Shown piece after piece: positions 35,589 through 37,101 of a stretch of DNA of 64,000 bases; the stretch's first letter is position 1; each line of letters begins with the position of its first letter. The notes beneath the pieces were generated by a model. That model was not told the origin of the DNA and ran no database searches. It worked only from the letters and a program-made list of their open reading frames with translations. The position numbers and the translations under genes are program-made. The stretch covers positions 1,114,758 to 1,178,757 of the forward strand of contig CP058998.1 in assembly GCA_013426015.1 (NCBI GenBank), given 5' to 3'. This DNA comes from Candidatus Fermentimicrarchaeum limneticum (lineage in GTDB: Archaea; Micrarchaeota; Micrarchaeia; Burarchaeales; Fermentimicrarchaeaceae).

Positions 35589-36320
35589 ATGCCAGTTAAA
35601 ATAGTCGAGACGAAGGAATTCGATCTTAAAAAACCCATTCTCGTAGAGGGCTTTCCGGGAATAGGGCTTGTGGGCACCATAGCTGCAAGCTATATTGTTG
35701 AGAAGCTCAAGATGGACCTGCTTGGTCATATAACATCTGATAAATTCCCGCCAATAGCAGCCGTACACAATAAAGTCCCACTCCACCCTGCAAGGATATA
35801 CAAATCTAAAAAGGATAATCTGCTCGTTCTTTTCTCTGAGTTCATCATACCACTGCACAGCATTCACGACCTTTCTGAAAGAATTCTAGAATGGTGCATC
35901 GAGAAAGATGTCAAAGAGATTATATCACTCGGCGGGATAGTCGTGCCCGGGCAGGAGAATGTCGTTTTCGGGATAGGCAGCACTCCGAAGCTCGTTGAAG
36001 AGCTTGAAGCAAATGGTATAAAGACGATAAAGGAGGGTGCGACAACCGGAGTAAGCGGAGTCCTGCTGGCAGACTGCTATTCAAGAGGATTCCCGGCAAT
36101 TTCCCTTCTTGCAGACTCAAAGCCGGAATTCCTCGACCCGAAGGCTGCCGCGTTAGTCATAGATGCGCTGAAGAAGCTGGTAAACATCAGGGTTAGCACA
36201 GAGGAACTGGTTGCGGAATCCAATAACGTTGAACTGAGAATGAAGGAGCTGATGTACAAGGCAAGGGATGCGCACAGCGACTACAAGAAAGTCGAGGAGA
36301 TAGGGCCGATGTATGGCTAG
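35589..36320 (+). CDS. PAC2-family protein (proteasome assembly chaperone-like)
   Basis: 243 residues. LVEGFPGIGLVGTIAASYIVEKL, HPARIYKSKKDNLLVLFSEF, SLGGIVVPG, EGATTGVSGVLLADCYSRG and LADSKPEFLDPKAAALVIDAL are the conserved PAC2 blocks. Archaeal members are related to the PbaA/PbaB proteasome-assembly chaperones and bind each other or 20S subunits. A TATA-like ATATTTAAAG lies about 20 bases before the ATG. It ends 36 bases before tRNA-Leu. Confidence 0.87.
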   Translation: MPVKIVETKEFDLKKPILVEGFPGIGLVGTIAASYIVEKLKMDLLGHITSDKFPPIAAVHNKVPLHPARIYKSKKDNLLVLFSEFIIPLHSIHDLSERILEWCIEKDVKEIISLGGIVVPGQENVVFGIGSTPKLVEELEANGIKTIKEGATTGVSGVLLADCYSRGFPAISLLADSKPEFLDPKAAALVIDALKKLVNIRVSTEELVAESNNVELRMKELMYKARDAHSDYKKVEEIGPMYG

Positions 36321-36356: not shown

Positions 36357-36460
36357 GCGGGGGTGCCTGAGCCTGGTCTAAAGGGCAGGTGACATCTGTC
36401 TGCCAAACTTAAGATCCTGTGCACTTAGGTGCTTCGTGGGTTCAAATCCCTCCCCCCGCA
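36357..36460 (+). tRNA. tRNA-Leu(UAA) with a 17-nt noncanonical intron
   Basis: The acceptor GCGGGGG pairs with CCCCCGC, discriminator A73, no encoded CCA. The long variable arm GCAC-UUAG-GUGC marks a class II tRNA. Removing bases 36390-36406 leaves an anticodon stem CAGGA/UCCUG closing the loop CUUAAGA, anticodon UAA at 36410-36412. The intron, UGACAUCUGUCUGCCAA, sits between stem positions 30 and 31, not at 37/38. Its junctions form a full bulge-helix-bulge: central helix GGCA/UGCC, 3-nt bulges GGU and AAA cut after the second base, inner helix GAC/GUC with loop AUCU, outer AAG/CUU. The T stem has one U-U mismatch. Mature length 87 nt. Confidence 0.92.
36390..36406 (+). other. tRNA intron, 17 nt, position 30/31
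   Basis: Bulge-helix-bulge intron inside the 5' strand of the anticodon stem of tRNA-Leu(UAA). Boundaries are set by the two 3-nt bulges and by restoration of a 5-bp anticodon stem after removal. Confidence 0.85.
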
Positions 36461-36468
36461 TAATTCAT

Positions 36469-37101
36469 CTACCAGAACTTCACCAGTATCAGCCTTATCT
36501 GGTCGGAAGTGTTCTCGCAAGCGTCTGCTATGTTCTCAACAGACTGGAATAGAGCGTACATTATAATCGCCTCCGCACCGGGTCTGTTCTCCTTCAGCAG
36601 CACCTTCTTTGAATTATAGTACTGGTCATCCACCGCCTCCTCCACCCTTTCAACCTTGTGCGCCAGCTCCATCGCCCCCTCCTTGTCTCCAGAGATTATC
36701 TTGCCTATGCACTCGTTGAGCTTTACTATTGCTTCCTTGCAGTTCTCGCACATCTCCTCAAGCAGCTTCTTCTCAGAATCCCTCAGTTTTCCTATGGCGG
36801 CTAGGTTCTTGCTTGCGGTGTATATCCAGTCGTTTATCGAGTCTGCTTCCTTTGCGAGGCGCATGAGGTCCTCCTTGTCCTGGCTTGCCAATTCCCCTTT
36901 TGCCAGCTGCTCCATAATCCCTCTCCTCACGTCGTCCGCTTCCTTTTCTATCATCTTTATCCTGTCAAACTTCCGCCCTTCCTTCTCCACCATGTCCATC
37001 AATTCATCTATTGATTTTGCACCGAGTTCAAACTCCTTCTTGAACATCTCGAGCACCTTCTCCTCCCTCCTCTCACCAAACCATTCAGATATGCTAGTCA
37101 A
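36469..37101 (-). CDS. DUF47 / PhoU-like regulator
   Basis: 210 residues, all helical. ISEWFGERREEKVLEMFKKEFELG, IEKEADDVRRGIMEQL, RLAKEADSINDWIYTASKNLAAI and VERVEEAVDDQYYNSKKVLL match the DUF47 family, whose E/D-x-x-x-D repeats bind metal clusters as in PhoU. Such proteins usually accompany phosphate transporters. Here it overlaps the ABC ATPase gene by 8 bases, so the operon may serve phosphate or another anion. It ends 8 bases after the tRNA on the opposite strand. Confidence 0.85.
   Translation of the reverse strand: MTSISEWFGERREEKVLEMFKKEFELGAKSIDELMDMVEKEGRKFDRIKMIEKEADDVRRGIMEQLAKGELASQDKEDLMRLAKEADSINDWIYTASKNLAAIGKLRDSEKKLLEEMCENCKEAIVKLNECIGKIISGDKEGAMELAHKVERVEEAVDDQYYNSKKVLLKENRPGAEAIIMYALFQSVENIADACENTSDQIRLILVKFW

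Follow-up and report, generated by a model that had tools for sequence, protein, structure and literature searches.

Between an upstream protein gene and a convergent downstream one, the window (the whole 64,000-nt stretch of DNA that was analysed) carries a tRNA-Leu(UAA) gene in two exons, separated by a 17-nt intron within the anticodon stem (Table 1). Removal of the intron from the segment 36357-36460 leaves an 87-nt RNA that is called by ARAGORN as tRNA-Leu(taa), with acceptor, D, anticodon, variable and T arms. The limits set for the gene and for its intron (36390-36406) in a preliminary description of the locus proved exact, and the perfect 5-bp stem and UAA anticodon expected there after excision are indeed present, with CAGGA paired to UCCUG in the anticodon stem of the spliced 87-mer. 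With bases counted from the acceptor stem, G36389 falls at position 30 and A36407 at position 31; thus, the intron lies at 30/31 and not at the canonical 37/38. One mismatch, U50-U64, is found in the T stem (window positions 36437 and 36451), and the five genomes of the genus all share it with the organism's own Leu(UAG).

Table 1. Features of the tRNA-Leu(UAA) locus, in window coordinates, and the splicing endonuclease gene elsewhere in the same genome (G000, contig C1).
Feature	Coordinates	Strand	Remarks
5' exon, tRNA-Leu(UAA) positions 1-30	36357..36389	+	acceptor GCGGGGG pairs with 36453-36459; D arm; CAGG of the anticodon stem
Intron, 17 nt, at 30/31 (TGACATCTGTCTGCCAA)	36390..36406	+	tRNA on removal; only cut with a full bulge-helix-bulge; position conserved, with paired changes
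3' exon, positions 31-73	36407..36460	+	anticodon UAA at 36410-36412; discriminator A36460
Bulge-helix-bulge (BHB)	36381..36410	+	outer 3, central 4, inner 3 bp; bulges 36388-36390 and 36405-36407
Upstream neighbour, 243-aa protein	35589..36320	+	putative PAC2/proteasome-assembly-like, by reading
Downstream convergent neighbour, 210-aa protein	36469..37101	-	putative DUF47/PhoU-like, by reading
Splicing endonuclease, 386 aa	G000:C1 about 874862-876022	-	sole PF01974 gene of the genome

In its uncut form the gene escapes standard detection. Neither ARAGORN in default mode nor Rfam at gathering scores calls any tRNA in the whole window; below the Rfam threshold the sole match at the locus is a weak and wrong tRNA-Sec (E 0.37), and the unspliced locus scores 14.6 bits in a genome-wide tRNA scan.

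The splice site and its conservation

The region around the two exon-intron boundaries folds as a complete bulge-helix-bulge, just as had been described from the letters alone. An outer helix joins AAG (36381-36383) to CUU (36408-36410), a central helix joins GGCA (36384-36387) to UGCC (36401-36404), and an inner helix joins GAC (36391-36393) to GUC (36398-36400); the 5' bulge reads GGU and the 3' bulge AAA, with the boundary after the second base of each. A 4-bp central helix with two 3-nt bulges, together with a normal tRNA on removal of the intervening segment, is what characterizes archaeal BHB tRNA introns. When every possible removal of 10-39 nt within the gene was considered (n = 1875), a complete BHB (outer 3, central 4 and inner 3 bp, with 3-nt bulges) accompanied a single cut, namely the one that restores the tRNA. 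Such a coincidence of central 4 and inner 3 bp arises in 0.09% of random 17-mers placed between the same exons and in 0.06% of shuffles of the real intron. Cuts shifted by one or two bases also read as Leu(taa) by sequence, but they lack the full BHB. When the unspliced 104-mer alone is folded by free energy, the best structure is one without the BHB, such folds being a weak guide.

A different removal has little to recommend it. ARAGORN, when run with the -i option for anticodon-loop introns, reports a Leu(aag) with a 19-nt intron; however, that cut has a BHB of only 0/1/1, against 4/3/3 and a perfect 5-bp stem for the 17-nt cut. We regard the output as a misreading, and a 19-nt intron or any comparable alternative as exceedingly improbable.

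The same intron occupies the same gene in the four other genomes of the genus (G001-G004) and in G013, which belongs to another family of the order. Congeneric Leu(UAA) genes are 92-95% identical overall and their introns measure 17-18 nt; the exons are near-invariant in the five genomes, and the changes are concentrated in the intron. There, the window has GAC/GUC as its inner helix, against GGC/GCC in G001-G004 and GAG/CUC in G013, and one pair of the central helix varies between G-C and G-U. In an alignment of the six sequences, BHB pairing holds in 150 of 150 pair cells (about 44-55% when the partners are slid), two inner-helix pairs have changed on both sides, and the covariation score is reached by 2 of 500 shuffles. 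The G013 row of this alignment had a second, T-loop intron removed by hand, which left the 30/31 region untouched. Because the intron sequences differ, yet inner-helix pairs change on both sides, selection must be keeping the BHB structure; the exons are otherwise near-invariant, and the gene is therefore not decaying. The upstream neighbour adjoins the gene in G001-G004, and the downstream neighbour does so in G002, G003 and G004.

These comparisons bear on two further readings of the locus. We infer that the genome was probably assembled from a metagenome, and a 17-nt insertion could in principle be an assembly error; however, four other assemblies of the genus show an intron of 17-18 nt in the same place with paired changes, so that this account is scarcely credible. 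According to the other reading, the locus is a pseudogene, a copy of tRNA-Leu broken by a 17-nt insertion while an intact gene works elsewhere. In its favour are the failure of default tRNA finders at the gene and the single T-stem mismatch. Against it stand the near-invariant exons in five genomes, the mostly intronic and paired character of the changes, and the fact that the ~97%-complete genome has yielded no other Leu(UAA) gene. A pseudogene is thus a very improbable explanation.

The evidence on copy number comes from several searches. No second Leu(UAA) was found in the genome, which is ~97% complete, by a genome-wide tRNA search to E 10, by BLAST with the gene or by a loop-pattern search; the tRNA catalogue of the genome combines a covariance search with chosen stretches. 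The other Leu genes of the genome have the anticodons CAA, CAG, UAG and GAG. BLAST with the gene returned only three other places, all of them Leu genes with other anticodons, and the loop pattern marked no further place in the genome that coincides with a tRNA match. Since the genome is only ~97% complete, a second copy in an assembly gap is possible but unlikely. UUA codons occur in six of the seven neighbouring ORFs that were checked.

Splicing enzymes and other intron-bearing tRNAs of the genome

A single gene of the genome encodes the tRNA endonuclease domain PF01974. Its 386-aa product matches the epsilon2 enzyme of Ca. Micrarchaeum acidiphilum (ARMAN-2; 4FZ2/9W2K) with an E value of 1.5e-142, residues 3-386 aligning with 3-387 of 4FZ2. 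It is thus of the epsilon2 type, a single protein of ~390 aa made of three units that matches the ARMAN-2 enzyme over its full length. The catalytic triad, Y160 and K161 of the ARMAN-specific loop, and the stacking residues R275 and W384 have been named as functional residues of the ARMAN-2 enzyme (PMC12397907; PMC6379350). All seven of these (Y236, H251, K282, Y160, K161, R275 and W384) are conserved; in the protein's own numbering the triad is Y235, H250 and K281 and the loop residues are Y159 and K160. Its nearest relatives are from Micrarchaeota. By analogy with ARMAN-2 (PMC12397907; PMC6379350), the enzyme probably forms a homodimer that acts broadly on relaxed motifs.

The preliminary description, which left the type of endonuclease to be identified, had predicted for this genome an enzyme of relaxed specificity, such as the epsilon type of ARMAN, and the protein, with loop and triad kept, agrees with that prediction. 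The premise from which the prediction was drawn, that an intron outside 37/38 needs a relaxed enzyme, was too strong. Cleavage of canonical BHBs at different positions is common to archaeal endonucleases (PMC6379350; PMC4090602), whereas relaxed motifs are efficiently removed only by the (alpha-beta)2 and epsilon2 types (PMC6379350). Because the BHB of this intron is a strict one, the enzyme type does not follow from the tRNA alone and is shown from the protein. An intact second Leu(UAA) gene, combined with only a canonical-specificity homotetramer, had been named beforehand as evidence that would speak against the intron; neither was found.

The genome also has the gene for the archaeal exon ligase, RtcB. 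It forms one 986-aa frame on the minus strand (G000:C1:285237-288059; L229 335-3295) that contains an in-frame insert, beginning with CLTGDSKI and ending with HNFIANNIIVSN before CGVRLI, which looks like an intein.

Taken together, the locus is almost certainly a working and apparently single-copy Micrarchaeota tRNA-Leu(UAA) gene with a BHB intron at 30/31, from which we infer splicing. In the unspliced transcript the anticodon stem would be unable to form, and bases of the D arm and anticodon stem would instead pair with the intron as a strict BHB. The epsilon2 endonuclease would then cut past the second base of each 3-nt bulge, between G36389 and U36390 and between A36406 and A36407, and RtcB would join the exons to give the 87-nt tRNA. 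Transcription, cleavage and ligation in the cell are deduced from the gene and from the enzymes that the same genome encodes.

Introns are also found in other tRNAs of the genome; some of these were read by hand, with exact cuts fixed for part of them. The Asn(GUU) gene (G000:C1:686530-686628) contains two introns of 13 nt each, one at 30/31 (BHB 4/3/2) and the other at 37/38, and a clean tRNA results when both are taken out. Anticodon-stem introns at 29/30 were seen in Arg(UCG), Val(UAC) and Arg(UCU) (G000:C1:933707, 843353 and 635808, respectively), T-loop introns in Ala(UGC) and Thr(CGU), and probable D-arm introns in Gln(UUG), Gly(CCC) and Ser(GCU) (G000:C1:762957, 831939 and 740488, respectively). 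Leu(GAG) (G000:C1:759262-759367) and Ser(CGA) (G000:C1:296809) share one and the same 19-nt T-loop intron (AAACCGAAAGGTTGCCCAA) at 56/57, suggesting that an intron was copied from one tRNA to another. A tRNA-like stretch at G000:C1:1044451-1044537 has a poorly paired acceptor stem, and the intron removals tried there give no normal tRNA; it is possibly a pseudogene. The intron diversity of the genome fits the published link between specificity-loop endonucleases and diverse introns.

Origin of the intron and relation to known systems

Among relatives, the 30/31 intron in Leu(UAA) has a patchy distribution. The window's genus and G013 have it, and so does G083, a member of a more distant family, where its 16-nt sequence is a different one; Leu(UAA) genes without it occur in G005 and G007 (same family as the window), in G008 (the family of G013), and in G009 and G012. 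Introns at 30/31 are also found in other Leu tRNAs: in G010 the gene is Leu(GAG), and in G017 it is Leu(UAG). The Leu(UAA) gene of G013 (G013:C65, from 12547) has a second intron besides the one at 30/31, about 100 nt long and in the T loop; a similar T-loop intron is seen in G013 Leu(UAG) on another contig. On G083:C26, Leu(UAA) occurs as two genes of nearly identical sequence that lie 1.5 kb from each other (L215 1501-1602 and 3002-3103), both with the same 16-nt 30/31 intron.

One tentative reading is that introns land repeatedly at position 30/31 of tRNA-Leu in the class. On this view, transfer from one tRNA gene to another, and not inheritance, may have brought the intron independently to the window's genus, to G013 and to G083. 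This reading is proposed because the Leu(UAA) genes of nearer relatives (G005, G007 and G008) lack the intron, because G010 and G017 have 30/31 introns in Leu(GAG) and Leu(UAG), respectively, and because two different tRNAs of the window's genome share an identical 19-nt intron. Old inheritance with losses is the alternative to repeated gain, and we do not decide between the two.

The position, the BHB motif and the class of enzyme have all been published. Position 30/31 is among the non-canonical archaeal intron positions reviewed by Yoshihisa (2014; PMC4090602), where they are explained by a transplantable motif. The Leu(UAA) intron resembles those introns in its position and its BHB splice sites, and its 17 nt are inside their usual range of 11-129 nt; the sources stressed there are Crenarchaeota and Nanoarchaeota, whereas here the host gene is Leu(UAA) and the lineage Micrarchaeota. 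The 30/31 example named in that work, tRNA-Lys(CUU) of Nanoarchaeum equitans and Staphylothermus, shares the junction but is a split (trans) gene, unlike the cis intron of Leu(UAA). ARMAN-1 and ARMAN-2 (Ca. Micrarchaeum acidiphilum; PDB 4FZ2 and 9W2K) have the same epsilon2 type of endonuclease, with all seven named functional residues shared, and ARMAN tRNA introns lie at various tRNA positions (PMC4033280); within the group, the ARMAN lineage differs from that of the window.

Because default tRNA annotation misses this gene, an automatic annotation could report the genome as lacking a tRNA for UUA codons. The Leu(UAA) gene illustrates cleanly, and with covariation in support, how endonuclease and introns fit each other in Micrarchaeota, and the patchy spread of its intron among relatives offers a natural set for testing the movement of tRNA introns.
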